Positions 14,711-59,956 of a stretch of DNA of 64,000 nucleotides are shown here, in pieces. Where the stretch lies: the NCBI RefSeq assembly GCF_963675165.1, contig NC_087377.1:14442198-14506197 (forward strand). Direction: 5' to 3'. This DNA is from Halichondria panicea. Its lineage: Eukaryota; Porifera; Demospongiae; Suberitida; Halichondriidae. The translations under genes were made by a program, and so were the position numbers. Numbering within the stretch: the first letter of the stretch is position 1; each line of letters begins with the position of its first letter. The notes under the pieces are model-generated. The model searched no databases, was not told the origin of the DNA, and worked only from the letters and a program-made list of their open reading frames with translations.

Positions 14711-16167
14711 TCATGTTTTTCCCACTCCTACTGGTCCATAAGCTTGGTTAGTGTTCAGTTCAATCTCTTCTTTAGGCAACACCTCCTCATAAACAGGACC
14801 AGTTGATGCAATGGGTCCTACGTTAGCTTGTCCTTCAGCTGCCGAGGAGTACACTGCCTTCTTATGAGAGCAAAAGTGCATCACTACGAGTCCAGTGAGA
14901 AATCCAAGGAGTGTTGCCATTAAGAACGTTATGCCTGTGCTCATTCCTGTAATCTCAGCATTTGATAAAGAGTAGCCATCTTTCTCTGATACTCAAGACG
15001 TATTGATGTGAACTGATTCGTTAGCAATGGGTGCTGTACATTGAGACAATTATTATAATGTCATGATTCAGCTATTATCTTGTGTAAGACACCTTCGCAA
15101 TGCAGGTCAGCAGGATTAGGCACCCACCCTCCTCTTCCTGAAACTTTAACACAAGTTGCTGTTCTTGGGTGACTGGGAAGTAGACCATCATCACACTGGA
15201 GCACAATTTCTGATCCTTCCGTGAAACCAGATTCAGCAGATAAAATACTAAGGCTCCCGTTGATAGGAGTAGAAGGTGTATCACACATAATAGCACCAGC
15301 TTGGGGAGAAATGGGGATTTAATTAGGATTATGATTTATTTGATCTAATACCTGGTATAATACCACTGTATGTAGTGATATTACTAGTCCCTATGCTGTT
15401 TCTAGCTTGAAGGGTGACAACATAGATCCTGTCATTTCCAATCATCGAACTTCAAAGGGGACAAAGCAAGTTGTTGTACATACACTACTGCTCACACTTT
15501 TGTTATAGCTTGTATTGTCATAGAGAAGATAAATATTGTAAAAGATCTCCTCCTGATATTGCAGCATTCAATCTGCAATGTGTGCAGTTGACTTATTGCA
15601 AAACCAATTATAACTAACTTACATATTGTTTCCAAGTGACAGCCAGTATAAATATAGAGGGGATAGATGATGTATTGATTCTTACACTGACGTTAGAGAC
15701 ATTGGGCAGTATTTCTTTCACTATTGAGATTTTCACCAAGGTGTCATTGTTAGTTTCTGGGTCACCACAGCTGATCCTCGTAATATTTATAATCTCAATG
15801 GCTGTTTGAGAAAGTTCTAAAGTAAGAATTGATGAGAAATTAGCAAAAACTTTAGAAATTCTATCTTGTGACACTCGAACAAGTTCAACAGATGCGAAGG
15901 CCAAAATTGAGACATTTCTTGTTTCATTCACACTATCAGGCGAAAAGGTCTTGAAAAATACATGTTTTCAGCATGGTACAACCTCCACTCTAACTGTGTG
16001 AGGTCCACTCCCTCACAGAAGAGTCTAACAGTTCCAGGACAGTGTTCACCAACCAGACTCACTCCTCCCTCAACAGTCAGAGACACTGATGATGAGTACA
16101 CCTCTTCACTTATCATTGAAATTAAGATGATTAGTACTGCACTTGGCCTGCAGCACACTGTCATCAT
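14711..16167 (-). pseudogene. Receptor A1 (Ig-FN3-CCP-TM), broken
   Basis: Same plan as the intact A genes. Signal peptide plus Ig-like exon is 15623-16167 ('MMTVCCRPSAVLIIL', Cys in 'VRLFCEG', Trp in 'LEWRLY', Cys in 'RISCGD'); FN3 15352-15572; CCP 15093-15299 (CDTP...CDDG...ATCV...LHC); stalk/TM/tail ending 14711. Lesions: a 1-bp deletion in an A run near 15953-15957, at least one 1-bp deletion in the FN3 exon, a TGA replacing the stalk cysteine codon near 14993, and a lost normal stop that extends the tail. The tail still shows YEEV and YGPV. It is the duplicate of A4 and shares the first frameshift with it. Confidence 0.8.
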
Positions 16168-16799
16168 GTTTTACGACTATAGAAGTTGTATTTGTTCATA
16201 GCGTATGCGCATTGAATGATAAATAAACTTTGGGATAATTAAAAGTTCAGACATGATATCCGAGGTAGGTGTGATGGACTGTAAACAGAATAGTAAATTA
16301 TTGACAAACACAAGTCTGTTATTTGGCAGATAGCTGATAGCTGAGGATGTATAGGCAACATGTAGGTGTCGTCCTGCACTTCCAAGAGTACTTTGAGGTT
16401 GTCGAAAACATCAGGATCCCCTTCACATTCCGATCGATATTTGCAAAAGGGGAGGGTTCAAAAAGTATTGAGTGTGGCTGGGTTGGGTTACAAATGGGGA
16501 AAAAAAGACAAAAATTTATGTCAGTGGGTGCACGTGAATCGGGCGAAGTAGCAAAGATTGGTATTATTTTTTAGTTAAGGAGCATTCAAGTGCATGGGAG
16601 ACTATACGATTGATCTGGGTGGTATGTGTTTGTATTTCAAGGATACCAAGGTATAATATTATTTATTCTCAGAAGAAGAGGGAACGAAAGTATCATGCTT
16701 ACATGTATATAGATACGTACTGTATACGTTGTCAAAATTGAGCTCAATTGGAAAGCAATCTGACGTATAGTGTATTAATTATAGTCATTCAATATTCAG

Positions 16800-16860
16800 T
16801 CACAGTCTGACAGTTTCAGGACAGTGTTCACAAACCAGACTCACTCCTTCAACAGTGATA
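16800..16860 (-). pseudogene. Relic of an Ig-exon start
   Basis: About 60 bp match the conserved start of the A-type Ig exon (GTTCACAAACCAGACTCACTCC) without the rest of the gene. A near-identical relic is at about 35765-35830 in the duplicated block. Confidence 0.55.
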
Positions 16861-17256
16861 ATGATTTTATCAAATGTACGTATATACAATCCCCATCATC
16901 CCTGAAATTTATTCCTGAAATTTTAAGTGAATTGCATGCATTTTGTTGACAAACACAATCGTGCTCATGTTTAACTAGCCCTCTCAATCCTAACTTTATG
17001 AAAGAATAAGTTTTCTATTCAAACTGTTGGTTTTCTCTTGCTGTTGAAAGTTTGTGACAATTCTCGTAATTAGTGGGAACAATAATACATGACTGTATTT
17101 AGTTTCAGTTGTGATTGTGTGATTGTACTAATTGGCTAGTGTGTGAATAATATTTTATGAACTGTTTGTAAACACTAAAATTAATACTTAGAAAGCGAAG
17201 TACTTTTTGTGTGATGCATTTTGTAACGCGTTTTTAAACTCAATTCAAATCAAATA

Positions 17257-17440
17257 CAGTGGAACCCCTCTATAACGGACACCTTTACATTGGGATCAAT
17301 GTTTTGGCTTTTATACAGAGGTGGCCTTTGTTGAGGGGTTGTTTTGTACACAAACTGTTCATTGGGACCTGGGTGCCTGGTCGTTATATAGCAACTGCAT
17401 GGCCTTTATTTGGAGGTCGTTGTTAACAGAGGTTCCGCTG
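17257..17440. mobile_element. Tigger/pogo-like MITE
   Basis: The ends CAGTGGAACCCCTC and GAGGTTCCGCTG are flanked by TA on both sides (17255-17256, 17441-17442), which is the Tc1/pogo pattern. It is 184 bp and non-coding. It lies inside an insertion (about 17207-17757) absent from the paired block at about 36233. Confidence 0.8.
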
Positions 17441-17559
17441 TACTGTATAATTTATAGGGCGAACTTTTTGGCACATTATGCTAGCATTTGTTCTACGTGT
17501 GCGTCGATTAGACTCTTAAAAATCAGTTTGCAAATCATTATAGCAGTAGTATACTGTCC

Positions 17560-17739
17560 GATATAGCGGGTTATTTTCGAGGCACTAAATTTTCGCGGAT
17601 TGCCCAAAGTAAAGATTTTGAGGATGAATTTCAAATGACCACACCCTCACAGTAGAGAGATTCAATATCTAATTTTCGACGCACATTTTGGTGTTTCTGG
17701 GTCGACCTCGAAAATCTAGAAAAATAACCGGCTAGCTAA
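17560..17739. mobile_element. MITE with GGTTATTTTCGAGG-type ends
   Basis: The left end AGCGGGTTATTTTCGAGG and right end CTAGAAAAATAACCGGCT are imperfectly inverted, with AAATTTTCGCGGAT inside. Single-end or fuller relatives occur near 24295, 57110, 62118-62320 and 63460, so this is a multicopy family. Confidence 0.6.
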
Positions 17740-17963
17740 AAGGTAATTGAGAACAGTAGGTGGATGAAAAGATTATTACAGCTCACACTTAATTTAGTGA
17801 CCTTTTTATACACCTCCACGGATGTAAGCTAGATCTATCTGATTATTGTAAAAACAGGATTTTGAACATCACCATAAAAATAATAATGTTGATGCGCAAT
17901 ATTCACGTGTTACTAAACGCTAGCTATATAGAAGTATAATACTGGCTGTAATGTACATGAATA

Positions 17964-19680
17964 CTAACACATGTTTACTGGTCCATACGATTGGTTACTG
18001 TTCAGTTCTATCTCCTCTTTGGGTGACACCTCTTCATAAACAGGACCAGCTTGCGCAGTGGGTCCTCCGTTAGCTTGTCCTTCAACTGCTGGGGAGTACA
18101 CTCCCTTCTTACGAGAGCAAATATGCATCACTAGGAGTCCAGCGAGGAATTCTATCAAAATTCCCATTAAGAATGTGATGCTTGCGGTCATCCCTGTAAT
18201 TTCAGCAATTGATAAAAACTCATCAGCTTTTTCTGCTACACTTGACAATGTATCGATGTGAGTCAATTTCGTTGTCTGGCTTGTACTGGGTGCTGCAAAT
18301 AAATATTATTTTGGCAAAATTGGAGCAAATAATTTTATAATTGTACCATTAGTTTCATCAAGGATGGAATGACATCTGAATGCAAGCACGTCAGGTTGCC
18401 ATGTCGTATCATTTGTGCAAGTGCCAGTAGTTGGCCCAATAAGAACAAATCCTTCATTACAAGAGAGTGACGATCGTGCTCCCTCTGCCTGGCTACTGAA
18501 TTCAAACGTTCCATTTGTCAGAAGAGGCGGGACATCACACCTTACTTAATTACAATACATTTAAAATCTATTCTGATCAATAAAATAATGCTTACCTAAT
18601 ATGATATTGAGTGATACGGGAAGACTGGACCCAGCACAATTTGTAGATACTACCATCACTGCATATTCCTGATTGTACTGAAGTATCAGCTCAATGTGTG
18701 ACTCTGTTACCACTAGCATGGCATAAGCAGAGTTGTTTGTGAGAGTGACTGTTACAGAGTATAGTAAACCTTTGCATTAGAAAGAGGAGGGTTCCATTGG
18801 AGAGTAACAGTGCTATTCTGTGATTTATTGACAATATCAGAAACTTGAAGAAGCTCTGGTAGTCCTGGAGAGTCTATATAGGTATCCAAGAAAAATCTTA
18901 GTGAGCATGCACTGTACAGAACAGCATACGGTGCATTCCTCACACAATGCAGTTTTATGGGGTGCCCTTTGTGTCAAAATTAATTACAATAAGTGGATGC
19001 ATGCTTCTATATAATTATATATAGTAAAGTGATGATAGTCACAGTAACATAGATGTCTCTCTTATTACTGTGTCACTATTGACGCTCCACTGTCTGATAT
19101 ATTCATCTCTCTTACTGCGACTATATCGTCGCTTAACCATATAGAAGCATCCATGCACTTAGTGTAATTTTGATACAAAGAACACACTATACTAATGTAA
19201 ATTTAACCACAATTAGATCAACTCACCATAGAGATCAATTCGCACAGTTGTTCCAGAGCACTCAATATCTCGACCATCCATCGAACTGTACAGGGTTAGT
19301 TCCAGTGTGGAGTTCAGATGTGGTGTTACTGAGTTGAGTGATACTGTGTAGGCTCCAAGTGTGTCTTCACTAATGTTACGTTTCCCAAGTGTAGGTGAGA
19401 GTGAACTTGAAAAGTCCACACGATTAAGTGTTTCCATTGGACGTCCAAAAGGATTTGGAGCAATCCATATCAGTGCATCACTTTCACTTATACATGTCAG
19501 ACTTCTCTTCTCTTGGGGACAGGCATTCTCAATGAAGGATGGAGACACTGTTGCATAATCTGCAGCTAGTATCTAGATATAATTATATTGACTCTTATAT
19601 AGACTACCTAATAATAAACTTTTACCTGCTGAATTGAAAATCATGAGCAGAATCTGGGTGAGCTGTAGCTGATATACCAT
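17964..19680 (-). pseudogene. Receptor B1 (Ig-FN3-CCP-TM), single frameshift
   Basis: Five exons: signal peptide 19626-19680 (MVYQLQLTQILLMIFNSAG), Ig-like 19227-19559 ('SLTCISESDALIWI', 'DIECSG'), FN3 18596-18873 ('SPGLPELLQVSD'), CCP 18347-18544 (four Cys, 'TWQPDV') and stalk/TM/tail 17964-18292. All junctions are phase 1. The tail has YEEV and YGPV like the A genes, but the ectodomain is a separate subfamily. Compared with B2, two extra bases in the FN3 exon (near 18757, TACTATAC for TACTAC) bring an early TAA; the remaining exons are open. It could be a true null allele or a sequence error. Confidence 0.8.
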
Positions 19681-20747: not shown

Positions 20748-22213
20748 CTTCACAAAGTAGGTCAGCAGGATTAGGTACCCACTCTCCTCTTCCTGAAACT
20801 TTAACACAAGTTGCTATTCTTGGGTGACTGGGAAGTAGACTATCGTCACACTGGAGCACAATTTCTGAACCCTCCATGAAACCAGATTCAGTAGATAAAA
20901 TTCTAAGGCTCTCGTTGATAGGAGTAGAAGGTGTATCACACACGATAGTACCAGCTTAGGAAAAAATGTATGGGGACCTAATTAAATATAGGTTATGATT
21001 AAATATACCTGGTATGATGCCACTGGATGTAGTGATATTACTAGTCCCTATGCTGTTTCTAGCTTGAAGGGTGACAACATAGATCCTGTCATTTCCAGTC
21101 ACTGATACTTCAAAGGAGACAAAGCAAGTTGGTGTACATACACTACTGCTCACACTTTTGCTATAGCTTGTATCGTCATAGAGAAGAGAAAGATTGTAAA
21201 GAATCTCCTCCTGATATTGAGAACATTCAGCCTGCAAAGCAAATATGATGCAGTTGACTTGCGACAAGCATTACAAACTTACGTATTGTTTCCAAGTAAC
21301 AGCCAGTATAACCATATAGGGGATAGATGACGTATTGATTCTTACACTGAAGTTACAGACATCGGGCAGTGCTTCTGTTACTATTGAGATGTTCACTGAA
21401 GTGTCATTGTTGTTTATTGCATCACCACAGCTGATTCTGTGTATTTCAGTGACCATTTGAGAAAGTTCTAAAATAAGAATTGATGAGAAATTTGCAAAAA
21501 CTTTAGAACTGTGCTGTGATACTTGAACAAGTTCGACAGATGCAGAGCCCAATGATAAATTGTTAAAGACTTTTTTGGTACCATTCACACTATCCGTCAC
21601 AAACTTCTCAGAAGAATACATGCTATCATTGTAGTACAACCTCCACTGTAGCAGTGTGAGGTCCACTCCGTCACAGAACAGTCTGACAGTTCCAGGACAG
21701 TGTTCACCAACCAGACTCTCTCCTCCTTCAACAGTCAGAGAGACACTTGTAAACGCTAGCCCTATAATAATTTTGTCAGCTTATGTTCATAGCTAATAAC
21801 AGTATACCTTAAACAGTAATCTTACCAGTAAATGTCGAGAACATTAGAATTAAAAGAACAAAGTAAATTCTCAAATGTACAGTGTGTTGTTATTATTATG
21901 TGTATGTGTGTGCACTTGACTAATGTGTACATTGTTTACTTAGTTAATTTGTACTGTAGCTATGGTTTCTGTTATAGGAATGTTAAGTAGGTTAATTACT
22001 TCCTGTGGAGCAGAGCCTCCTTTTGTGTTAACAATAGATTCTTTGTTGTAAAGAGGCCCTGCGCGTCTCTCTTGTTTTTGGTGCATGTATGATCTCTGTT
22101 TTGTCAGTTGTTACTTTTGTCTATCTTGTTTAATGTTAAATCCTTGTCAAATCTTGAGCTGACTCCGCCGCTTAGCTAGTTCTAGCACTCAACTCTGCCA
22201 ACACAGTGCCCAT
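20748..22213 (-). pseudogene. Receptor A2, split by a solo LTR and lacking its TM exon
   Basis: Ig-like exon 21283-21761, FN3 21009-21231 and CCP 20748-20954 are all open and have the same lengths as in A6. The signal-peptide exon is cut: the ATG survives at 22211-22213, but the rest (VHLRIYFVLLILMFSTFTG, to about 21830) lies beyond a 319-bp LTR. No transmembrane/tail exon follows the CCP. The sequence instead switches at about 20727 to DNA matching 39246, a duplication junction. Because the last junction is phase 1, the ectodomain could in principle splice to B1 exons downstream; no transcript evidence is available. Confidence 0.75.
21885..22203. mobile_element. Solo LTR in the A2 signal-peptide exon
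   Basis: Starts TGTTG and ends CAACA, 319 bp, flanked by the 5-bp duplication CAGTG (21880-21884, 22204-22208). The paralogous A6 exon at about 55940-55960 has the uninterrupted empty site. The TG...CA ends and 5-bp duplication fit an LTR retrotransposon. No internal coding region is present. Confidence 0.85.
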
Positions 22214-22611: not shown

Positions 22612-22613
22612 TA

Positions 22614-23940
22614 TTGCATGTGGGTATGGCTGAGTTTGGTTATACAAATGAGGAAAAGGAACCAAAATTGAGAGGGTAAAAGCTTGTTGCACAAATCTGA
22701 ACATGAATCGGGCGAGGAGCAAGAGATCTATAATTTTAATGAACGCAGGTGAAGAGCAGTGGACATTTACCATTCAAGTGGGAGATCAGTGATCAAGATA
22801 ACTGCTGTGGTATGGGTTCAAGGATACCAATTAATTGCAAGGTATTTACTCAGAAGAAGAGGGAACCAAAATACCATGCTTGTGTATATACAGACTGACG
22901 CAGTCTCAAACTGGCATATCATCAAAAGTGAGCTCAATTGGAATGCAACCTGACCCACTCAATATAGTCTGAATATTGATGGAATGTACTGAAATTGTAT
23001 AATTATCTGTACATAATTATTGTTTATGCATGCATGGTTGAGCAACTCACATCTGTTTCATATTTCTATAACCAAGTTAACAAGCTGTTCTTGTCCTACG
23101 CACTTCATGCAAGCTTAAGATATCACATAATTATATAGAAGCCTTCCCAATCTCATTTTGAACTGAGTCAACTGCATCAAGACTTGATGATACATAATAA
23201 TTATAGACTATAGTTGCATGGTATGTATACCCTTAGTCTGAGAAGGTTTTGGTTTTGGCATTGTTCGCCAACAATAATTATAGATGTTGAAAAGCCACTA
23301 AGGCAAGAGGGATATTTCACTGGTCAATCGAATTAAGTTAAGCGTGGTTGACTAACTGGGAAGTGCATGCAGTAACAGTAAACTTAGGCGTAAAGTGGAC
23401 CTTGTGCCCAGTTTTGTATGTTTCCAGCAACACACTAAAACTGAACCCACTTTTGAGATCGGGGGAGGTCAATTCTTGATTATAGCAGGAATATGAATTA
23501 GTATTACGGTGATAAGAAAACATGTCTTCATCATCATCGAGGGTATAATGTGACATGTGCAATGCATGTGCTATAATACCAAAACTGTTTTTTCTGCCTT
23601 ATAATTATATACTCTTAATTCAGGCTGTTCACCGTATACAGTTACGTCCGTTGGTTCTTCACGCTGTGTGATCTCCTTACTGTATCATGTTTACTATCAA
23701 TTGAAGTTCTTCTGGAATTCTTGTTCTTTAATGATCTCCACAGTTACATCATGTTCCTGTAGCTGTAATAACTCCGAGAACAGAAGAGAAGTTACCAAAT
23801 TGCTGGTCTGCCAAGTTTTGTGATACATGTGTTAGGTGTATAAATTGGAAAGGGGACTCAAGGCTCAGATGTATAGGATGGTATTATTTGAATGGATCAC
23901 ATTGATTGCCATCTCCATTGTATAAGTCATATAATATGAC
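22614..23940. other. Intergenic DNA with tail-exon relic
   Basis: No intact gene. 23040-23540 resembles 61850-62110, which encodes a GPVYAEV tail piece on the minus strand; here the frame is degraded. The paired block lacks about 22691-23522. Confidence 0.5.
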
Positions 23941-23944
23941 TTGT

Positions 23945-24060
23945 CAAAATGCTGAGGTCCTCTCCGTCACAGAACAGTCTGATAGTTCCAGGACATGCAG
24001 TATTCACCAACCAGACTCACTCCTCCATCAACACTCGACAGCCATGCAGAGAGACACTAT
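23945..24060 (-). pseudogene. Relic of an Ig-exon start
   Basis: Matches the start of the A-type Ig exon but carries two TGCA insertions (23996-23999, 24045-24048). The counterpart at 56785-56895 has the same two. No neighbouring receptor exon. Confidence 0.6.
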
Positions 24061-24625: not shown

Positions 24626-27079
24626 TTATATTGGTCCATACGCCTGGTTAATGTTGAGTTCAATCTCCTCTTTGGGTGACACCTCCTCATAAATAGGACC
24701 AGCTGGTACAGTGGGTCCTATGTTAATAGCTTGTCCATCAGCTGCCGGGGAGAACACTGTCTTCTTCCGCATGACCCAGTACATCAAGAGAGCACCACAA
24801 GCACAACCAGAAACCATTGCCACAATAAATGTTACAATGGTGGAAATCACAGCAACTTCATTGATGGTCAGAGAAACTTCCTTGGAATCTGTAAATCATG
24901 TCAAAACATTGTCAAACATGCAGACTAAGATCACCTCATTCCAGTCAATGTACCATATACTAGAATGTTTTGCAAGAAAAAACAAATAAGCGAAATTTGC
25001 GAGGGTTGACCAATTCTTCGCAACGCGAAACTAATACACACGATCCTTGCCAGAACGCAATAGTTAAATCGCAAAGGGTCAATTTTCTGCTGATTTGGCT
25101 TATTTGCAAAGGTTTTTCACCCGCAAAGTATTCACATATGTACTAACCCTAACCCTTACGCATATATCCTATAATTACCAGTTGCTCCCTGCATGGAAAC
25201 AAACAGTAAGCAATATATACATAAGTATCATTATATTATGTAAACTGCAATGATAAACAAGGGCATTTAGCTAAATCAACTGTTGAGTACACAGTATAAT
25301 AATTATTTATCTAAATGAATGGTTCATCAATATATAAGTGCTGTTTGGGTGATTTAAAACCCAGCACATATAATTTTAAATTTATAGCAGGCTTTTACTG
25401 AGGGAATCGCAGAGCCTGTTAGGCCATGTAACAGCAGTAATACCGTGCTTTATTAAAACGCTGTTTTTGAGCTATAGTTACACAAATAATATTATTAGTG
25501 CTATAACTATAGCACGGAGTGTCGATTGTATCCATACTCTTGAATTCGTTATAAAACAATGCAATGCATGCAAAAATTTACCTTGTCCTAAACATTTAGG
25601 TCTTCAAGGTTGAGACTCCACCGGTACGTACTATTACAGGCAAAAATATTCTGTCCAATGAGCTCGTATCTTTTTTCGCACCAAAACCTGATAGTTAAAT
25701 GTTCACCAATGCTCGTGTAGGAATATTTGAGTAATGGGTTGTTGGTTAGTTTTTCTGGAAGGGCACTGCATTTCTCTGCATACAAGTATAGCATACACAT
25801 GCACTATTTAAAAAACACTATACTCATATATTTATAAATAAGGGGAGAGAGTGACCCAACCCACAAAACCAGTATTACATACAGGAGGATAATTCAAAGA
25901 CTATTTTCTATTATTGTTTGGAGGATTATGTGCAGCATTTTATTTTGTGTTAGGCCACTCAGCATGTATTCAATTTTATTATTGTTATGTAGTTAACATT
26001 ACCTTCTTCACAAAGTAGGTCAGCAGGATTTGGCACCCACTCTCCTCTTCCTGAACTTTAACACAAGTTGCTGTTCTTGGATGACTGGGAAATAGACCAT
26101 CGTCACACTGGAGCACTATTTCTGTCCCTTCCGTGAAACCAGATTCAGCAGATAAAATTGTAAAGCTCCCGTTGATAGGAGTAGAAGGTGTATCACACAT
26201 AATAGCACCAGCTTGGGGAGAAATGGAGATCTAATTAGGATTATAATTTATTTGATCTAATACCTGGTATGATACCACTGTATGTAGTGATATTACTAGT
26301 CCCTATGCTGTTTCTAGCTTGAAGGGTGACAACATAGATCCTGTCATTTCCAATCATCGAAACTTCAAAGGGGACAAAGCAAGTTGTTGTACATAATTAT
26401 ACTACTGCTCACAATTTTGTTGTCATTTGTATCATTGAACAGAAGGGCAACGTTGTAAAAGATCTCCTCTTGGTATTGTGAACATTCAGCCTACAAAGTA
26501 TTAATTGCGGCATTACAAAGTTATGAGCTTACATATTGATTCCAAGTGACTGTCAGTATAGTAGAGATAGAAGTATTGATGCTCACATTGAAATTATAGA
26601 CAATGGGTACTGTCTCTTGTACTACTGAGATGTTCACTGAGGTATCATTGAAGTTTCGTGCATCACCATGCACATCTGATCCTGAAAACCATCTGTGTCC
26701 CAATGGCTATTTGAGAAATTTATAAAGAAAGAATTGACGAAAAATTTGCAAAGATTCTCGATATTCTGTCCTGGGACAAATGAACAAGTTCGACAGATGC
26801 AGAGACCAATGTTGAGTCATTAAAGACTTTTGTGGTGTCATTCACACTATCAGTATCAAAACGTTTGAGCAAATACATGTTGTCATCATGGTAGAACTTC
26901 CACTCTAACAGTGTAATGTCCACTCCCTCACAAAACAGTCTGACAGTTCCAGGACACTGTTTACTAACCAGACTCACTCCTCCTTCAACAGTCAGAGACA
27001 CTGATAATGAGTACACCTCTTCACTTATCGTTGAAGTTAAGATAATTAGTGCTGCACTTGGCCTGCACACTGCTGTCAT
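24626..27079 (-). pseudogene. Receptor A3 (Ig-FN3-CCP-CCP-TM), several lesions
   Basis: Duplicate of A7. Exons: signal peptide plus Ig 26533-27079 (MTAVCRPSAALIIL), FN3 26264-26490, CCP1 26003-26211, CCP2 25582-25775 and TM/tail 24626-24888. Lesions against A7: TAA at 26720-26722 in the Ig exon; a TGCA insertion at 26669-26672 just before the Ig F-strand cysteine codon region is completed; a 1-bp deletion in CCP1 (TCCTGAACTTT for TCCTGAAACTTT); and a 1-bp deletion in CCP2 that removes its last cysteine and stops early. The tail exon is open with YEEV and YGPI. Confidence 0.8.
24959..25132. mobile_element. MITE with AGAATnnTTTGCG ends
   Basis: Left AGAATGTTTTGCAAGA and right CCCGCAAAGTATTC are inverted, with GCGAAATTTGCGAGGG inside. 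The paired copy in A7 is at 57843-57980, so insertion predates the duplication. Confidence 0.55.
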
Positions 27080-44460: not shown

Positions 44461-44466
44461 GGAAAC

Positions 44467-47482: not shown

Positions 47483-49920
47483 ATGATGCAATGTTATACA
47501 AGATGCTTTGTACTCTTTCTGCTAAGCTGGTTACACTACTGCCAAGGTATGTGATAGAGATATTCTAGAAACGTTATACCATTTGTGAACAATGATAGGA
47601 ACGTCAGTAAGTGTAATTACGGATGATGGAAAAGATACACTTTCTGGTTCGTACTGTCCTACAACTGTTAAGCTTATCTGCAATGTTACAAGTCTTCCTA
47701 ATTTGCGATGGACGTACAATACCAGCAAAAACATAATTGTTCTTTTTCACTCGGATAGTGTAGTACGCTACCCAGTTGCAGCATTTCCATTTTACCAGTT
47801 AACACAGTTTAATGTATACAAAAATCATATGAATCGGACTCGGATTAATGCTTCAACAATTCTCACTGTTGATCTGTCAGATCTGAACAAACAGAATATT
47901 GAAATTATCTCGTGCGGTTCTTCTTTTCTGGACAAGACAGTGCCAGTGAATATCAGCATTTTGCAGCCAACATTTCCTTCTGTTAGCCCCCAAGTTTATA
48001 CAGCTGTGATTGTACGTTATGAGTCTGGACTTGTATCTAGTGTAGATGTATCATGGAGAAAATTTCAGGTACGTATAATTAGACTGTACTTGACACAAAA
48101 TGTTTGAATACACACTGCATTGCTGCTATAGCAACCAGATTGTCCTGAATATGAAAATTCCCAAGAATACCTCATCAATGTCACTGGATGTGGGTGGACG
48201 TGGCTCAACCACAGTACCTGTCAAGATACTATTTGCTCGTCTATTTTCAGTAATTGTACAGAAAACGTGAGTGAAATCACCCTACAAGCCAAGATCGCTG
48301 ACATTGAGAGTGAACAAGTAGTTTTTCCCACCTCTGTAGGTGAGAGCATTAATCTAGTATAGTTATTACATTTATGGACTTTTTTACAGATTCCAATAAT
48401 CGCTACTTTAGAGCTGCTGTTAACCAGTCGTCTAGATGCCAAATTCATGTGCAGTGTTTACCCATGAGAGGAGATGTTAGTATACATCAAATGTGCACCA
48501 TTCGATACACTGCAGATCCGGATTATGGAAATCTATCAAATCCTATCACAACTCTAGTTGGCACAGCACCTGTCTCACTTTCACTTACTACTCCTGGTAC
48601 CATGTACTACTTTGAGTTCTCTGTGTTGATGAATGATACCTTGTTGATTGTGGAACGAATGGAGTACATGATTACAGGATCGGGAGGTATGAGAATATAA
48701 AGTAACAGCAAGAGTCGTATAATCATAATGAACTCATACACAAATAATTATTTGTATCTAATTAAAACTCCGATTACTATTGAGAATTCTCATCTACAGA
48801 GTTATTCCAGCTGGGTGTAAGAGAGGGTGCTATCCTTACTATTGTATCATCATTCTTAGGATGCTTTATTGTGCACACTACAATGATACTGTACCTTTTA
48901 ATAGCTCGGAATGCTAACGGTGAGTAATTATTATCGTCACTACATGAAGCTAATGCCACCCAACTTCATGCATGCACAGGTGTTCATACAATATCCCGAT
49001 TGAATGTGTTCATCATTACTAACAAACGCATTCAAATCTCGATAACACTGATCCTCTTCACGCTGTTTATTGGATGTAGCACTCTGTTGACAGCCTTTGC
49101 CATTATTTCAAATGGTACGTATTGAAAGATTCAACTCTCATTTGCAATACTTTCTGTGTTTATTTCATTACAGATGTGTGTTTCACAAACCAACAAGTTC
49201 CCAACAGTTTACTTGATGCAATGTTAGTACTTTCATGTGTTGGGATAGGAATCCTTCTCCTCTATTGGGCCTTCATAATATACAAAGTGTATAAACAACG
49301 CACTAAAGGTAATTTGGAGAGTGAACAAATCAAGGTTTTCTTTTTCAACTTTCTTATTTTGTATAGGAACTAAAAACAAGCTTGACATCAATTCAAAAAC
49401 AGTTAAATATGACGCTCAAGAGTCATCTGAGGTGATAAAATTGTTTTAATCTAGACAGAATTATACATTTGCATTTGCTATCCAGAAGCCACCCAATTCT
49501 CAAGAATGCCAGCATTTGGAAGATATGCATCCTGATGGTGTTGAGGAAATGGTTCCAATGCATAAGAAGCCTTCGAATGACAACCAGCTAATGACGACAC
49601 CTAGTAGGAAATGTCCACCCTCTACACTTCCCAAACAAAGAAAGTCAGGTCAGCATTCCAACACTGTTTTGTACGATGAGGTTGGTTTAGCGAAAATCAA
49701 AGGCAATGTCTCGGATATGACAGAAGTTGAGTTGAAAGCTAACGAGTCTTACGGGCACACAGACAAGAGCTTTTCAACTGCCAAGAGCAACGTGGCTGCT
49801 TGTTCACTATGTTTGTCTCCAGGCAGCAAAATCCAGCAAGATTTGTCATTAAATCATCAGTACAGCGATCTCAAAGTGACACCAAAGAACGAGCATCCTA
49901 AGCAAAATACTATTGAGTAA
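47483..49920 (+). CDS. Receptor C2: Ig-FN3-like ectodomain, three TM helices, ITIM-like tail
   Basis: Nine in-phase exons, about 642 residues: 47483-47546 (signal peptide MMQCYTRCFVLFLLSW), 47599-48068 (Ig-like: 'VKLICNVT', 'NLRWTYN', 'IISCGS'), 48132-48339 (FN3-like, Cys-rich), 48390-48686 (third segment 'YYFEFSVLMND'), 48800-48919, 48980-49114 and 49174-49308 (one helix each), 49367-49431, and 49486-49920 (tail). Odd helix number puts the tail inside the cell. The tail has 'TVLYDEV', a match to the ITIM form VxYxxV, 'ELKANESYG', and 'HQYSDL'. 'EVELKANESYG' aligns with 'EEIELNTNQAYG' of the A tails, tying the two families. After the TAA at 49920 the same frame continues with another such unit. 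Confidence 0.82.
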
Positions 49921-49999
49921 GAGCAGATAGAGTTGAAGTCTAATCAGTCATATGGTCAGCTAACAAGTTCTGTTGGTCAGATATATAGGGGGATGTGAA

Positions 50000-51360: not shown

Positions 51361-51711
51361 ATATTATTTAAAATAACGTTAACAGTGAGCATAATCTTAC
51401 GTTTTGTTATTTCTCTATAATTATAGTGTCTGCCTGTCTGGGATCAATTCAAGAGCTCGCATTGAAGAAGATTGTTAATGAATTATAAACCATTAAATAA
51501 ATTTTAAAAGAGAATTTTGAGTATAAAACTTATGAGATGTGTATTGAACAAGCATTGTTACTATGTATGCAAGTGTGTTGTTCAAAATTGACAAAGCGTG
51601 AGGTACTATACAATAACTATTGATATAACTGGTTCATTGTTAACTTGGAGAGTTTGTGACACTGCATGCATGTGCTGATAATTATGTGTTAAGAGGTTTA
51701 CTTATGAGACT

Positions 51712-53210
51712 CTATTTACAATGTCCGAACAGTTCATTGTCAACGTAATCATACTCCACTCTCTTATCCAGGTCAGAAGTTTCTCTTGCCAAACCATACG
51801 AATGATTCGTTTCCATTTTCACCTTTGTAGCTCCACTACTTCTCACTTCACCATACGACAAGTTAGCTTTCAATCTCATTTCCTCATCTGGTCGTGAACG
51901 TTGCTTCTTTGACTCTACACAAGACTCGTTAGGAAATAACTTTCCACTCAACTTTGTAAAAACACCAGTTCCTTTTATTGGATCATCGGCCTCACAATAG
52001 GAGTGAGTCAGGTCTTCATTTTGCTGTTGTGTTTCTTGATTCGAATAGACAACCTCCTGATCAATTTCCCTTGACTCTTGTATTCGTATTTCCGGTGCAG
52101 TCTCTCTCGGTTGCACTTCAGTCTCCGTTTTTGTTTTCAATTTTAATTTTTTCAGCAGAATATAGTATACACCAACTCCCATGACGAAACCGAGTACAGA
52201 AGAGAATATGAATACAACAATTGTAGTTGCTACGGTCACTCCGATAGATACAACTCCATTGGAACTGCTGTCTGTCACTGAAAGTACAACTGATGTTAAA
52301 GGCTCATGCATTAATAGAACTCACCAATAAAAACATTTTCTGTGACAGGATCACTAGCTTCTCCCCACGTCGTTAATGGCTTGGAGCTCCAACACGTAGT
52401 TACCATCTCCGGAGTGAGGGACAGTGAATGTGACCCTGCACACCATTGTACAGTCACCACCACTAGTTGTTAAGATTTGACGATCATCACTCCCAGTTAA
52501 GGTGATCTCATAGCGGATTTGCTGTCCATAATGAGGGCATACCGAAACCTACAAGGAAATATATGAATGTGTATAGTGCCCTGGCCAGTGACTCAGTGCT
52601 ATAATGAAATGCATGCATAGTAAAATCAATAGCTTACTGGTGGTTCCCATGAAATTAGTAGCAGAATATAAGCAGAAAAGTCAACAGATGTTTGAATATT
52701 GAATTGTTGAGGGTCTTTTGGTTGTGACTGTTGTCTTATCTGAATATCAATAGGGATCATCTGGTAGTTTGCTGGATCTCCGCATCTGATTTCATTAATG
52801 TGCTGATCCACAATCGGTGAGATGTCGAGAGTAAGAGTGGAAGAAAAGTTTCCGTAAATTGGGTTAGCTCCATTTTGTGAAACTGCTCTCAACGCAACAG
52901 AAATGAAGGCTGAATTCAATTCAATTTGAGTGGAGGTCACGCTGTCAGGGTAAAATGAATGAATTTCTTTGTTAGTGACATTGTAACTCCAACGCAAAGT
53001 AGTGAGCTGCACTCCTTCACAGAACAGTCTGACAGTTCCAGGACAGTGCTCACCAATTAGACTTGCTCCTCCCTCAACAGTCAGAGAAACACCTGCAACA
53101 TGATTGCATGTAGCTGATCACAATAAACAAGGGATCTTACTCATTGCTCTGCTTTTTCCAACAGTGAAGGACAATAAAACAATATGCATTAACAACTGAA
53201 GTACTCCCAT
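51712..53210 (-). pseudogene. Receptor D1: Ig-FN3-TM with long tyrosine tail, one extra base
   Basis: Exons: 53141-53210 (signal peptide MGVLQLLMHIVLLSFTVG), 52638-53092 (Ig-like: 'SLTVEGGASLIGEHCPGTV', 'LRWSYN', 'IRCGD'), 52325-52548 (FN3) and 51712-52277 (helix 'VATTIVVFIFSSVLGFVMGVG', KKLKLK, tail of about 150 residues). There is no CCP exon. The FN3 exon has one base too many, most likely in the C run at 52363-52366; with three bases the frame reads to the splice site. Tail tyrosines: 'VVYSNQ' (Grb2-type YxN), 'HSYCEAD', 'LSYGEV', 'HSYGLA' and 'EYDYVDN'. 'RLKANLSYGEV' and 'KMETNHSYG' repeat the motif found in the A and C tails. A single homopolymer lesion leaves open a sequencing error. 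Confidence 0.78.
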
Positions 53211-53504
53211 CTTACTTGAGGTAGACTATACTTAACTTGCTAACTGGATGTTCCAAAATTCATGAGAGTTTCCCAAAAACATGTGATTCAATTCACAGGT
53301 GCATGCAGTTTATTTTAATTCATGCACCTATCAATTACTGATGTGAGTTATATTTATGAGTGAATAGCTGAAGAAATAACAGTTGCACAAACTTCAATTG
53401 CTTTCTACACGGTTATGATGAATTATATATAAAGTATACACACTAGTAAGCAACAACACACAGCATGTCCTTGATTTGTATTTATAAGTTAACACTGCAT
53501 GGTC

Positions 53505-53610
53505 CATAAGCTTGGTTAGAGTTCATTTCAATTATTTCTTTGGGTGACACCTCCTCATAAACAGGAACAGCTGGTACAGTGGGTCCTTGTCCTTCAGCTG
53601 CCTAATTCTA
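53505..53610 (-). pseudogene. Relic of an A-type tail exon
   Basis: GTCCATAAGCTTGGTTAGAG and CACCTCCTCATAAACAGGAA match the A-type tail; the frame reads PVYEEVSPKE...NQAYG before decay. No helix-coding part remains. Confidence 0.65.
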
Positions 53611-53754
53611 TGAAAGTATAAGTTTTCTATTCAAACTGTCTCTTGCTATTATTATTCTTATTTAATAATTATGATGACAATTCTCGTAACAATAATATAC
53701 ATATATTTAGTTTCAGTGTATGAACTGTTTGTAAATACTACTGTCTTAGAAAGC

Positions 53755-54077
53755 GAAGTCTAACATGTGTATAACATGTGTATAACATGTGTATAACACT
53801 GTGTATAACATGTGTATAACGTGGTATAATTATGCATGTTATGCACATTATACTGGTATTGAAAGAATACTGACTATCAAAACAATGACATCATAACTGA
53901 AATAGTAAGACAATGCACGAAACTGATTCACATTATACTTATTTATACTAGATTATGGTGGTAATTTGTGACTTTATACATCAGGTTTTACATGGTTCTA
54001 TACACATTATACACATGTTATATTGCACTCTATGCAATATAACATGTGTATAATGTGTATAGAACCATGTAAAACCT
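53755..54077. repeat. ATAACATGTGT tandem units and a 45-bp perfect hairpin
   Basis: About five ATAACATGTGT units (53762-53820) precede a perfect inverted repeat, 53983-54027 against 54033-54077, with a 5-bp loop. The arms contain TATACACATTATACACATG, so the two structures are related in sequence. Confidence 0.8.
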
Positions 54078-54429: not shown

Positions 54430-55953
54430 TCATACTCCTAATGGTCCATACGCCTGGTTAGTGTTCAGTTCAATCTCCTCTTTAGGTAACACCTCTTCAT
54501 AAACAGGACCAGCTGATGCAATGGGTCCTACGTTAGCTTGTCCTTCAGCTGCCGGGGAAAACACTGCCTTCTTACGAGAGGAAAGGTGCATCACTAAGAG
54601 TCCAGAGAGGAATCCAAGGAGTGTTGCCATTAAGAACGTTATTCCTGTGCTCATTCCTGTAATCTCAGCAATTGATAACGAGTGGCCATCTTTCTCTGAT
54701 ACACAAGACGTATTGATATGAACTGATTCGTTAGTAATGGGTGCTGTACATTGAGGACAAAATTATAATGATTCAGAAGCTATCTTGTGTAAGACACCTT
54801 CGCAATGCAGGTCAGCAAGATTAGGCACCCACTCTCCTCTTCCTAAAACTTGAACACAAGTTGCTGTTCTTGGGTGACTGGGAAGTAGACTATCGTCACA
54901 CTGGAGCACAATCTTTGACCCCTCCGTTAAACCAGATTCAGCAGATAAAATTCCAAGGCTCTCGTTGATAGGAGTAGAAGGAGTATCACACACGATAGCA
55001 CCAGCTTGGGGATAAATGTATGGGGACCTAATTAAATATGGGTTATAATTATAAAGTAGATCTAATACCTGGTATGACGCCACTGTATGTAGTGATATTA
55101 CTAGTCCCTATGCTGTTTCTAGCTTGAAGGGTGGCAACATAGATCCTGTTATTTCCAGTCACCAATACTTCAAAGGGGACAAAGCAAGTTGGTGTACATA
55201 CACTACTGCTCACACTTTTGCTATAGCTTGTATTTTCATAGAGAAGGGAAAGATTGTAAAGGATCTCCTCCTGATATTGAGAACATTCAGCCTGCAAAGC
55301 AAATATGATGCAGTTGACTTGCGACAAAACCAATGCATTACAAACTTACGTATTGTTTCCAAGTGACAGCCAGTATAACTATAGAGAGGATAGATGACGT
55401 ATTGATTCTTACACTGAAGTTACAGACATCGGGCAGTGTTTTTGTTACTATTGAGATGTTCACCGAAGTGTCATTGTTGTTTACTGCATCACCACAGCTG
55501 ATTCTGTGTATTTCAGTGGCCATTTGAGAAAGTTCTAAAATAAGAATTGATGAGAAATTTGCAAAAACTTTGGAACTGTGCTGTGATACTTGAACAAGTT
55601 CGACAGATGCAGAGCCCAATGATGAATTGTTAAAGACTTTTTTGGTACCATTCACACTATCCGTCACAAACTTCTCAGAAGAATACATGCTATCATTGTA
55701 GTACAACCTCCACTGTAGCAGTGTGAGGTCCACTCCCTCACAGAACAGCCTGACAGTCCCAGGACAGTGTTCACCAACCAGACTCTCTCCTCCTTCAACA
55801 GTCAGAGAGACACTTGTAAACGCTAGCCCTATATAATCATTTTGTCAGCTTATGTTCATAGCTAATATAACAGTATACAACAGTAGTCTTACCAGTAAAT
55901 GTCGAGAGCATTAGAAGAAGAACAAAGTAAATTCTCAAATGTACAGTGCCCAT
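54430..55953 (-). CDS. Receptor A6: Ig-FN3-CCP-TM with ITAM-like tail
   Basis: Five in-phase exons, 427 residues: 55893-55953 (signal peptide MGTVHLRIYFVLLLML), 55350-55828 (Ig-like: 'VRLFCDG', 'LQWRLYYN', 'RISCGD', into the first FN3 strands), 55069-55291 (rest of FN3, 'YVATLQARNSIGTSN'), 54798-55004 (CCP, four Cys, 'GEWVPN') and 54430-54743 (stalk, helix 'ITFLMATLLGFLSGLLVMHL', tail with YEEV and YGPL). Unlike A5 and A7, signal peptide and Ig domain sit on separate exons. Domain-boundary junctions are phase 1; the one inside FN3 is phase 0. It is the intact partner of A2 and shows the empty site of the LTR that broke A2. Confidence 0.87.
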
Positions 55954-56784
55954 TAATTATTCTTTTCTATACAATCTGGGTAAATTAATGTTAGTAAATT
56001 GCATGCAGTTTTTTAGCAACAAAGATTCATTCAGATTCAAATCAGGTGATTTGTCATATAGGCTATAATTATAAACTATATATGCCACACTTTTTACCTG
56101 CAGTTACGAGAGTACTTTGAGGCTGTCGAAAACAAAGATCCCCTTCACATTCCAATCGATATTTGCAAAAGGGAAGAGGTTCACAAGGTATTGGATATGG
56201 CTGAGTTTGGTTATACAAATTTAATGAGGAAAAGGGACCAAAATTAAGAGGGTAAAAGCTTGTTGCAGATGTCTTCATCATCATCGAGGGTATAATGTGA
56301 CATGTGCAATGCATGTGCTATAGCAAAACTGCTTTTTGCCTTAACTAACTGCATATATACAGTCATAACAATGTCCATAGAAAAATCTGCGGCGGTGGTG
56401 TGATTCAACGGGTAGATCTCTTTCGAAAGCAGTTTAGCCTTTATATACTCTTAATTCATGGCTGTTCACCGTATACAGTTACGTCCGTTGGTTCTTCACG
56501 CTGTGTGATCTCCTTACTGTATCATGTTTACTATCAATTGAAGTTTTTCTGGAATTCTTGTTCTTTAATGATCTCCACAGTTATCATCATGCATGTTCCT
56601 GTAGCTGTGATAACTCCGAGAACAGAAGAGAAGTTACCAAATTGCTGATCTGCCAAGCTTCGTGATACATGTGTTAGGTGGATAAATTGGAAAGGGGACT
56701 CAAGGCTCAGATGCATAGGACAGTGTTATTTGGTTCAAATGAATGGATCACATTGATTGCCATCTCCATTGTATATGACTTGTC

Positions 56785-56895
56785 AAAATGGTGAGGTCCT
56801 CTCCGTCACAGAACAGTCTGATAGTTCCAGGACATGCAGTGTTCACCAACCAGACTCACTCCTCCCTCAACACTCGACAGCCATGCAGAGAGACA
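56785..56895 (-). pseudogene. Relic of an Ig-exon start
   Basis: Duplicate of 23945-24060, carrying the same TGCA insertions (56835-56838, 56884-56887). Confidence 0.6.
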
Positions 56896-57263
56896 CTATT
56901 ATATACTCATACTCAACGTGGCATACCTGTCAAATGGTCAGGATATTGTATACCGTGTAGGAGAAGTGTTCTAGTGGATAATTTTCGTTGGTGAAAACCC
57001 ATTTAAATATTTCGTAATATTCCTACAGCTTGGATTAGAGACGTTGAATCTATTTGTGTTCATAGCTTTAACTTTCGTACGATGCTCTTCATTCGAATAT
57101 TTATATCATACGAAAATAACCTGCTAATACGGTATATAATCCGGAATGAATGTACCTAAGCACAATGCTTGAACGTAGAATAAGAAAGCTATAATGAGGA
57201 ATTGTACGGAAAAAGTATTAATTAGCAGCTCACACATACATTATAATTATTCTAGTGACCTGT

Positions 57264-57315
57264 TAGCCTTGAATCCACGCCGATTAAAATTGTAATCGGC
57301 GTGGATTCGAGGCTA
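57264..57315. mobile_element. TAGCCTCGA-family MITE, 52 bp
   Basis: TAGCCTTGAATCCACGCCG and its near-complement surround a 6-bp loop. GTGACCTGT is duplicated on both sides (57255-57263, 57316-57324). The paired block at about 24430 shows the empty site (CTAGTGACTTGTTATAAT). Confidence 0.85.
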
Positions 57316-57505
57316 GTGACCTGTTATAATTATACACCTCCATAAGATGAACTTTCTGATTACCATAAACTCAAGACACCACAATTATAATAAGGTGATG
57401 CTCAGTTATACTTCTCATTCTGTAATTTATGCACATGCATGAATATGTAAAACGTTAACTATAACCATAATAATGGCTGGAATGTTACATGGACACTAAC
57501 ACCGT

Positions 57506-59956
57506 CTATACTGGTCCATACGCTTGGTTAATGTTGAGTTCAATCTCCTCTTTGGGTGACACCTCCTCATAAATAGGACCAGCTGGTACAGTGGATCCTA
57601 CGTTAATAGCTTGTCCATCAGCTGCCGGGGAGAACACTGCCTTCTTCCGCATGAACCAGTATGTCAAGAGAGCACCACAAGCACAACCAGAAACCATTGC
57701 CACAATAAATGTTACAATGGTGGAAATCACAGCAACTTCATTGATGGTCAGAGAAACTTCCTTGGAATCTGTAAAATAATGTCAAAACATTGTCAAACAT
57801 GTAGACTAAGATCACACCTCATTACAGTCAATATACCGTATACTAGAATGTTTTGCGAGAATCAAATAAGCGAAATTTGCAAGGGTTGATCAAAACGCAA
57901 TAGTTAAATCGCAAATTAAGGGTCAATTTTCTGCTGATTTGGCTCATTCGCAAAGGTTTTTCACCCGCAAAGTATTCTAGCAATTCATATGTACTAACCC
58001 TAACCCTTATACATGCACACAGATCTTATAAGTACGAGTTAATTGCTCCCTGCATGAAAACAAACAGCAAGCAATGTACATAAGTATCATTATCCTATAG
58101 ATGTAAACTGCAATGATAAACAAGGGCATTTAGCTAAATCAACTGTTGTGTAAACAGTATAGGGCTCAATGAATGGTTCATACTCTATAAGTGCTGTTTT
58201 TGGTGATTTAAAATCCAGCACATATAATTTAGCAGGCTTTTAGGGAATCCTAGAGCCCCATGCATGCATGTTAGGCCATGTAACAGCAGCTAGTAATACC
58301 GTGCTTGTTCTAAATCATTAAAGCACTGTTTCTAACTATAATTATACAAATAATTAGTGCTGTAACTATAGCACCGAGTGTCGATTGTATCCATACTCTT
58401 GAATTCGTTATAAAACAATGCTATGCAGTGACTGACTTGGAATATTTACCTTGTCGTAAACACTTTAGGACTTCAAGGTCGAGACTCCACCGGTACGTAC
58501 TATTACAGGCAAAGATATTCTGTCCAATGAGCTTGTATCCTTCTTCACACCAAAACCTGATAGTTAAATATTCACCAGTGCTTGTGTAGGAATATTTGAG
58601 TAACGAGCTGTTGGTTAGCCTTTTTGGAAGAACACTGCATTTCTCTGCATATACAAGTATATAGCATACATGTTATTTTAAAAAACACTATACTATGTAT
58701 ATATAATGGAGGGGAGAGTGATCCAACCCACAAAACCAGTATTATATACAGGAGGATAATTTCAAAGACTATTTTCCTATTATTTTTTGGAGGATTATGT
58801 GCAGCATTTTATTTTGTGTTGGCCACTCAGCATGTCTTCAATTTTATTACTGTTATGTAGTTAATACTACCTTCTTCACAAAGTAGGTCAGCAGGATTTG
58901 GCACCCACTCTCCTCTTCCTGAAACTTTAACACAAGTTGCTGTTCTTGGGTGACTGGGAAGTAGACCATTGTCACACTGGAGCACTATTTCTGACCCCTC
59001 CGCGAAATCAGACTCAGTCGATAAAATTCTAAGACTCCCGTTGATAAGAGTAGAAGGATCACACACAATAGATTCTGAACCAGTTTGAGGGGAAAACGAG
59101 GACCCATGCAATTAAATATAATTATAATTTAATAATTATAAATTTTTTTTATACCTGGTATGATGCCACTGTATGTAGTGATATTACTTGTCCCTATGTT
59201 GTTTTTAGCTTGAAGGGCGACAACATAGATCCCAGTTTCCAAAACTTCAAAGGATACAGAGCAAGTTGGTGTGCACACTCTACTGTTTACAATTTTATTG
59301 TCATTTGTACCATCAAAGAGAATTAGGGAAACATTGTAAAGGATCTCCTCTTGGTATTGTGAACATTCAGCCTACAAAGTATTAAAATGCAGTTGACTTG
59401 CGGCATATTTTTATGAACTTACGTATTGATTCCAAGTGACTGTCAGTATAGAAGTATTGATGCTCACACTGAAATTATAGACATTGGGTACTGTCTCTTC
59501 TACTATTGAGATGTTCACTAAGGTTTCATTGAATTTTTGTGCATCACCACATCTGATCTTGAAAACCTTCTGTATCCCAATGGCTATTTGAGAAATGTCT
59601 AAAGAAAGAACTGATGAGAAATTTGCAAAGATTCTCAAAATTTTGTCCTGGGACAACTCAACAAGTTCGACAGATGCAGAGACCAATGTTGAGTCATTAA
59701 AGACTTTTGTGGTCTCATTCACACTATCAGTATCGAAGCGTTTGAGCAAATACATGTTGTCATCATGGTAGAACTTCCATTCTAACAGTGTGAGGTCCAC
59801 TCCTTCACAGAACAGTCTGACAGTTCCAGGACAGTGTTCACCAACCAGACTCACTCCTCCCTCAACAGTCAGAGACACTGATGATGAGTACACCTCTTCA
59901 CTTATCATTGAAAATAAGATGATTAGTACTGCACTTGGCCTGCACACTGTCATCAT
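57506..59956 (-). CDS. Receptor A7: Ig-FN3-CCP-CCP-TM with ITAM-like tail
   Basis: Five in-phase exons, about 470 residues: 59423-59956 (signal peptide MMTVCRPSAVLIILFSMIS, Ig-like: 'VRLFCEG', 'LEWKFY', 'KIRCGD'), 59155-59371 (FN3 remainder), 58871-59074 (CCP1, 'GEWVPN'), 58450-58644 (CCP2: 'KCSVLP', 'FWCEEGY', 'FACNST', 'LKCL') and 57506-57768 (helix 'ISTIVTFIVAMVSGCACGALLTYW', RKK, tail with YEEV and YGPV). The usual CCP1 acceptor CCCCAAG is mutated to CCTCAAA; a CAG 9 bp further in keeps frame. A piggyBac-like insert begins 6 bp upstream of the first ATG, so transcription control has probably changed. It is the intact partner of A3. Confidence 0.86.
57843..57980. mobile_element. MITE with AGAATnnTTTGCG ends
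   Basis: CTAGAATGTTTTGCGAGA and (complement) CTAGAATACTTTGCGGGT frame 138 bp in the last intron of A7. Counterpart of 24959-25132. Confidence 0.6.

Follow-up and report, generated by a model that had tools for sequence, protein, structure and literature searches.

What does a demosponge do with a crowded family of surface receptors whose cytoplasmic tails carry contrasting tyrosine motifs? The question is raised by a stretch of 64,000 nucleotides of Halichondria panicea (hereafter the window), which corresponds to positions 14442198-14506197 of contig NC_087377.1 (contig C1) in a 131-Mb genome of 39 contigs, and which contains a cluster of receptor genes with immunoglobulin (Ig), FN3 and Sushi domains. 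The window covers just one edge of an array of such genes that takes up roughly 4 Mb of a single contig. As the edge of a far larger array with about 150 or more shared tails it is therefore a strong candidate for self/non-self or microbe recognition, and on balance we consider it probable that the array consists of germline-encoded non-self receptors with contrasting tails.

The receptors fall into several types. The A type comprises a signal peptide, a V-type Ig domain (IgV), FN3, Sushi, one transmembrane (TM) helix and a tail, and the B type has a second Sushi in addition. A different Ig domain, a single-exon FN3, one or two Sushi domains, a TM helix and the same tail with the motif YEEV make up the E type. 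In the D type IgV and FN3 are followed by a TM helix and a long tail; six tyrosines were counted behind the helix, in agreement with an earlier note on this DNA, which had given five or more. The C1 and C2 types contain IgV, FN3, a third domain, three helices (one per exon) and a tail. Hydropathy analysis predicted one helix for A/B and three for the C types. The FN3 of the A to D types and the third domain of the C types are named by position and general look.

The earlier note had described a cluster of about 45 kb that mixes two contrasting kinds of tyrosine tails. The mixture was found to recur over megabases; the extent had to be given up, since the array is far larger than 45 kb. Of 269 candidates for the YEEV tail (41 residues) 150 were scored, and these gave at least 150 matches; contig C1 holds every one of them, between 11.27 and 14.93 Mb, and 149 of 150 are without a stop; the unscored candidates of this search may lie anywhere in the genome. 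For the E-type Ig domain at least 119 matches were obtained (150 of 200 candidates scored), 118 on contig C1 (10.42-14.93 Mb) and one on C32, and nine of the 119 contained stops. The V-type Ig domain gave at least 149 matches (150 of 206 candidates scored). Excluding those confined to the first 59 residues of the query, which are a dispersed repeat, all scored matches were on contig C1, and after merging of pieces a hand count of the scored matches left about 69 loci. All matches to the C2 tail (22 of 22; 21 loci by hand count), to the D tail (17 of 17; about 14 loci, some broken) and to the C1-type three-helix region (12 pieces at six loci) were likewise located on contig C1. Gene counts are approximate, because the matches are exon pieces found regardless of introns. 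Five stretches were read around YEEV tails and E-type exons were present in all; the Ig exons near YEEV tails were mostly of the Ig-FN3-Sushi-Sushi-TM type.

By hand reading, the C2-type tails at 11.4-14.5 Mb of contig C1 lie on the strand opposite to most of the listed YEEV tails, on both sides of ~13.96 Mb. Sushi as a marker of this locus was ruled out and the idea dropped, because the domain is widespread in the genome (4112 candidates).

In the window, tblastn with exon seeds and spliced alignments placed 12 receptor gene bodies at 14726-59956, and thus recovered the at least twelve related receptor genes that had been proposed for about 45 kb. Frameshift and stop events were scored explicitly in the spliced alignments, and GT-AG junctions were checked thereafter. 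Complete open genes are A_42k, A_54k, B_57k and C2_47k (4 of 12). C1_30k is open over nine exons; an ATG for its first exon was found neither in the window nor in the copy in the duplicated block described below. The features are as follows (SP, signal peptide; aa, amino acids; ITIM and ITSM, immunoreceptor tyrosine-based inhibitory and switch motifs).

57506-59956, minus strand: B_57k, intact, 470 aa, SP-IgV-FN3-Sushi-Sushi-TM-tail; open GT-AG model of five exons (59423-59956, 59155-59371, 58871-59074, 58450-58644, 57506-57768), intron phases 0, 1, 1, 1; Sushi above the Pfam cut-off in two stretches
57560-57571, minus strand: YEEV codons of the B_57k tail, read from the sequence; YGPV at 57509-57520
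54430-55953, minus strand: A_54k, intact, 411 aa, SP-IgV-FN3-Sushi-TM-tail; open GT-AG model (exons 55893-55953, 55350-55828, 55069-55291, 54798-55004, 54430-54695)
42097-43551, minus strand: A_42k, intact, 410 aa, SP-IgV-FN3-Sushi-TM-tail; GT-AG model (exons 43015-43551, 42729-42951, 42471-42677, 42097-42362), Sushi above the Pfam cut-off
47486-49920, plus strand: C2_47k, open, 650 aa, SP-IgV-FN3-like-third domain-three helices-ITIM-form tail
49666-49683, plus strand: VLYDEV codons of C2_47k, ITIM form
30627-32705, plus strand: C1_30k, open from the IgV exon onward, three helices, ITSM-form motif at the end
32664-32681, plus strand: TVYKVI codons of C1_30k, ITSM form; the block copy at 81.9 kb has TVYKVV
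51715-53210, minus strand: D_51k, SP-IgV-FN3-TM-long tail, six tyrosines, broken
33652-35094, minus strand: A_34k, A-type, one frameshift in the IgV exon (spliced alignment)
24629-27079, minus strand: B_24k, B-type pseudogene, lesions at five places (spliced alignment)
20748-21889, minus strand: A_20k, open exons for IgV, FN3 and Sushi; neither a start codon nor TM/tail was found (spliced alignment)
14726-16167, minus strand: A_14k, A-type, three frameshifts, tail open (spliced alignment)
36471-38035, minus strand: E_36k, Ig-FN3-Sushi-TM-tail, two frameshifts (spliced alignment)
17967-19560, minus strand: E_17k, Ig-FN3-Sushi-TM-tail, one frameshift (spliced alignment)
53485-53601, minus strand: lone tail exon relic, YEEV...YGPC, without TM exon (exon-seed tblastn)
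56618-56855, minus strand: IgV relic (exon-seed tblastn)
23770-24016, minus strand: IgV relic (exon-seed tblastn)
62516-62578, minus strand: IgV relic (exon-seed tblastn)

In the intact A/B models the intron between V and FN3 is of phase 0 and the remaining introns are of phase 1; in the C1 and C2 types the tail also holds introns of phase 0 or 2. The last junction of C2_47k, to its tail exon, uses either a 27-nucleotide intron or one of 123 nucleotides with a weak donor. The lesion of D_51k is a 4-nucleotide CTAG insertion, which creates a TAG stop in FN3.

The A/B tail reads YEEV-x13-YGP(V/I/L) behind one predicted helix, as the earlier note had it. Matches of the 41-residue tail reached E values down to 4.7e-21 genome-wide, and the pair of Yxx[LIV] tyrosines gave shuffle P values of 0.005 (A tail) and 0.013 (B tail); because of these E values and shuffles the tail is not a chance pattern. 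YEEV and NQ[AS]Y were present in 21 of 21 tails read, which were found by similarity, a procedure that favours conserved ones. A classical immunoreceptor tyrosine-based activation motif (ITAM) has the form Yxx[LI]-x6-12-Yxx[LI]. This identity was ruled out for the YEEV tail, because its spacer is 13 residues and the residue at +3 of the first tyrosine is V (21 of 21).

An ITIM is defined as [ILVS]xYxx[ILV] in a cytoplasmic tail, and the C2 tail fits this expression with VLYDEV. Both this motif and TVYKVI of the C1 type, which had been named earlier, were confirmed at the positions given above. VxYDxV was retained in 14 of 14 distinct C2 tail copies, found by similarity to the C2_47k tail, and its conservation would seem better evidence than the lone ITIM expression. 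The D tail contains two ITIM-form matches (shuffle P 0.017).

Two further observations concern tail modules. At an E-type locus (L030:872-1225) a second tail exon upstream holds the module IEL-x-x-NQAY twice in tandem, the second copy being IELHTNQAYGPL; tail modules can therefore duplicate. In the same frame beyond the stop of C2_47k (49918-49980, plus strand) a further IEL-x-x-N-x-S-Y-G module was found, as though the ancestral tail had once been longer and was truncated.

For the ectodomains, Pfam detected Sushi above the cut-off in the A, B and E types, E_17k included, and did not find it in C1, C2 and D. With single proteins the Pfam fn3 family remained below its cut-off (18.7 bits against 25 in E_17k); a profile of the E-type FN3 matched titin A77-A78 (1.5e-8) and, weakly, fibronectin (0.021). 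No Pfam Ig family matched the V domain at E<=1 in six window proteins, sequence searches of the PDB with the V domain gave no useful match, and the E-type Ig profile yielded nothing beyond weak matches to antibody light chains (best E 0.0094). The V domain does contain the B-strand Cys, C-strand Trp and F-strand Cys of the V-set, and Cys26, Trp36 and Cys104 (C1-type numbering, strands placed from the model) are invariant in 7 of 7 V exons of set A4. At moderate confidence it was modelled as an Ig V fold. Foldseek with this model ranked adaptin-ear and other beta-sandwich folds among the Ig matches; the case for the Ig fold is therefore drawn from the VIA rows together with the Cys/Trp pattern and the domain context. 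The Ig/FN3/CCP ectodomains of the earlier note were thus borne out for Sushi by Pfam and for FN3 by the E-type profile; the V domain, which is without a Pfam Ig match, is probably Ig by its Cys/Trp pattern, model and domain context.

The genome contains 71 matches to the SH2 domain and nine to the PTB domain. The C3 locus encodes SH2-SH2-tyrosine phosphatase (SHP-type), and the C9 locus encodes SH2-ankyrin-SH2-kinase, which we take to be the Shark arrangement. The C4 locus, Syk-like, encodes SH2-SH2 and then the beginning of a kinase domain, a piece that stays under the Pfam cut-off and with which the stretch read comes to its end. These domain matches support the view that the genome encodes the kinases and the phosphatase that such tails would need. 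In flies Src42A phosphorylates Draper, Shark reads Draper and Corkscrew opposes, binding an ITIM isoform of Draper; an ITAM and NPxY are both present in the tails of Draper and MEGF10, which are read by Shark/Syk after Src-family phosphorylation, and CED-6/GULP are the adaptors for tails of this type (PMC8092387, PMC4503800). This circuit is an established precedent for the proposed signalling. The receptors of the Draper/CED-1/MEGF10 group are likewise one-pass, and YEEV plus NQAYGPV in the array tail resemble the same elements in a looser form. The engulfment receptors differ in having EMI/EGF ectodomains and not a diversified Ig array; six proteins from the window and one of the E type gave no EMI/EGF match.

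In the circuit that we infer, as regards ligand, cell type, phosphorylation, SH2 partners and sign of the signal alike, the A, B and E receptors, each with one helix, would display a V-type Ig domain that has diversified and that sits on FN3 plus one or two Sushi domains. Once ligand clusters the receptors, a Src-family kinase would phosphorylate both YEEV, a Src-SH2-like site, and NxAYGPV, and the tail with its two phosphates would then recruit a tandem-SH2 kinase, Syk-like or Shark-type, and NxxY perhaps a PTB adaptor, upon which engulfment or cell activation would begin. About 20 three-helix C2-type receptors (VxYDEV) and the D loci would engage an SHP-type phosphatase and dampen the response. 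The copies would diversify by duplication, by turnover of pseudogenes and by exchange with one another. In its full form, as a sponge non-self recognition complex in which a 4-Mb, one-contig array of about 150 or more germline Ig-FN3-Sushi receptors with one shared Src/Syk-type tail is checked by interspersed three-helix ITIM-form receptors and SHP, this proposal is possible though rather doubtful.

Constraint was expressed as the ratio of nonsynonymous to synonymous differences (pN/pS, with bootstrap intervals). The copies compared are paralogues that were picked up by similarity, a route that favours conserved copies; some come from broken genes, and exchange between copies distorts the ratios. 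The core of the YEEV tail, from GPVYEEV to YGPV, gave 0.21 (0.07-0.49; 21 tails). In 15 A/B ectodomains the values were 0.56 (0.46-0.73) for the V exon, 0.40 (0.27-0.64) for FN3 and 0.59 (0.38-1.13) for Sushi. Codons of D tails up to four from a tyrosine gave 0.31 (0.14-0.67) versus 0.84 (0.46-1.73) for the remainder (6 distinct copies). By these ratios codons near tail tyrosines appear more constrained than the ectodomains, with overlapping intervals for C2 and for the whole tail, and the pattern suggests no more than a core motif under constraint beside a relaxed ectodomain.

Turnover is evident from a comparison of the window with a block at 13.93-14.13 Mb of contig C1, with which it shares stretches of at least 1 kb that are 76-98% identical. 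The D gene copies, 394 kb apart (window 51539-53874; block 169446-171781, L025-L026), are essentially identical including the 4-nucleotide insertion, which two other D copies are without; they are likely a conversion tract or a very recent duplication. Identity between copies of the C2 gene beside D drops to 77-85% at the 5' end. The V exon of A_54k is 85-88% identical to its counterpart, and the adjoining 2.6 kb are 98.5-100% identical. In the block, one V exon begins with 33 codons that share 98% identity with A_54k; beyond them its identity to A_54k falls to 70%, versus 92% to A_34k. Exchange between copies fits such a mosaic exon and the near-identical tracts beside diverged ones; as all copies come from one assembly, duplicated haplotype blocks may be present alongside. 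E-type Ig exons at 11.7-13.7 Mb of contig C1 recur with identical scores at fixed offsets of ~234,250, 567,25x and 1,426,75x bases, which suggests either large segmental duplications of recent date or haplotype blocks duplicated in the assembly.

Several results weigh against an array of non-self receptors with contrasting tails. Identical blocks could partly be assembly duplication, in which case the gene count would fall. Of the twelve genes in the window, 7 (D_51k, A_34k, E_36k, B_24k, A_20k, E_17k and A_14k) are broken. None of the five tail types (A, B, C1, C2, D) matches the classical ITAM expression, and the ITIM form of the C2 tail turned up in 19.5% of its shuffles (P 0.195). Over the whole 43-residue YEEV tail pN/pS was 0.62 (0.39-1.28; 21 tails), not clearly constrained; the 11 A/B tails taken by themselves gave 0.68 (0.30-1.98). 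In the C2 tails the intervals for tyrosine codons, 0.34 (0.13-0.80), and for the remainder, 0.52 (0.37-0.72), overlap (14 distinct copies). No ectodomain ratio exceeded 1, V exon included, and diversifying selection is therefore not shown. A second V-domain model, from the C1 type, was poor (predicted local distance difference test, pLDDT, 54).

The alternative that survives best, and that we regard as possible though doubtful, is a dedicated allorecognition complex, that is a histocompatibility locus in which polymorphic ectodomains bind self or kin and paired tails decide on fusion or rejection, as has been proposed of Hydractinia Alr and Botryllus fuhc. In its favour are the linkage of the genes on one contig, the contrast between the tails, gene turnover, exchange between copies, and IgV plus Sushi as in FcoR (PMC12065747). 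About 150 near-uniform YEEV tails are more than the 41 Alr genes and 53 FcoR loci, and a uniform activating-type repertoire would equally suit microbe sensing. Hydractinia Alr and Botryllus FcoR appear, by analogy, the nearest in kind. FcoR of Botryllus schlosseri has a V-type Ig domain, Sushi, two C2 Ig domains, a TM helix and, in the tail, ITIM, hemITAM or Yxx[ILV] motifs; it is a birth-and-death family of 53 loci on more than one chromosome, in the locus controlling fusion (PMC12065747). Compared by description, both families are type I with V-type Ig plus Sushi, Yxx[ILV]/ITIM tails and multigene turnover. They differ in that the description of FcoR has two C2 Ig domains and makes no mention of FN3, whereas here FN3 lies between Ig and Sushi; that FcoR loci are on more than one chromosome, whereas here one YEEV tail has at least 150 matches on one contig; and that a three-helix type exists here. 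Alr comprises 41 genes with V-set Ig domains in an allorecognition complex (PMC11999971), and ITAM/ITIM motifs have been reported for its tails (reviewed in PMC12065747). A linked family, V-set Ig and ITAM/ITIM-type tails are shared with the array, again by description. To our knowledge Alr has no Sushi domain, in contrast to the array; moreover Alr is tied to an allorecognition complex, whereas the array is known from the genes of one assembly.

In vertebrates the paired receptors (KIR, LILR, NITR) also form clusters of Ig receptors, some of activating and others of inhibitory type, with rapid turnover and many pseudogenes, all of which resembles the array. Their activating members usually borrow an adaptor via a charged TM residue, whereas in the array the receptor tail itself carries the motif.

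Somewhat less probable, and in our judgement unlikely, is endocytic or scavenger uptake, in which YEEV and YGPV would be YxxPhi sorting signals and NQAY an NPxY-like adaptor site, serving clathrin or phagocytic uptake without ITAM-type signalling. Sponges feed by phagocytosis, the genome has the PTB domains mentioned above, both A/B-tail tyrosines fit YxxPhi (shuffle P ~0.04), and N at -3 gives NxxY (P 0.10-0.12) in 21 of 21 tails read, without the P of canonical NPxY. At these P values, however, both are permissive patterns, the kept EE and the 13-residue spacer seem beyond what sorting needs, and signalling is suggested by the C2 and D tails, which are distinct and set their tyrosines in other contexts.

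A cell-adhesion or cytokine-receptor family, expanded for tissue organisation and not for immunity, is quite improbable. The FN3 region weakly resembles LIFR domains and tissue factor (Pfam, sub-threshold), and a Porifera-specific cytokine receptor superfamily has been suggested (PMC8242945), but rapid turnover, more than half of the window genes broken and very many copies fit conflict-driven families better. Very improbable is a largely decaying or duplicated-haplotype array, mostly pseudogenes or assembly duplicates with few functional genes, to which the broken window genes and the identically scoring exons at offsets of ~234, 567 and 1,427 kb point, and against which stand 149 of 150 tail and 110 of 119 E-type Ig matches without a stop, although single exons say little of whole genes, and the constraint on the tail core and the D tyrosine motifs.

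Some observations lie outside these questions. The 5' leader of B_57k (59957-60022, minus strand), FIITIRYRCCNFYNRLPRKEL, matches many places on many contigs and is a dispersed element. The left flank of the window holds remains of mobile elements, namely P-element-like transposase pieces and an integrase, and also PHD-finger open reading frames (770-1776, plus strand; 9164-9550, 7049-7675 and 12805-13242, minus strand; the PHD frame at 12805 is below the Pfam cut-off). No RNA family reached threshold in the 64-kb window. SRCR gave at least 213 matches (1364 candidates, 150 scored), with clusters on C3 at 6.4-6.9 Mb, on C5, and at ~2.0 Mb on C11 and C16; the large SRCR and Sushi numbers agree with the published sponge repertoire (PMC8242945).

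ITAM/ITIM-like receptor families tied to allorecognition have been reported for cnidarians and ascidians, and there is no conservation among the candidate allorecognition proteins of these two groups and of sponges (PMC12065747). The receptor family of the array was not found in the open-licence literature on sponge immune or allorecognition receptors, a search that left most subscription papers outside its scope and therefore does not show the family to be unpublished. The array is unusual in its scale, in one shared tail with at least 150 copies on one contig, and in its three-helix Ig receptors. With such a candidate in an early-branching animal whose genome also encodes tandem-SH2 kinases and a phosphatase, the origin of ITAM/ITIM-like logic becomes testable, with one locus, four intact genes in the window and defined peptides. 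If the proposed complex is real, paired activating/inhibitory recognition with tandem-SH2 proteins would predate the split of sponges from other animals, or would have arisen separately in sponges.

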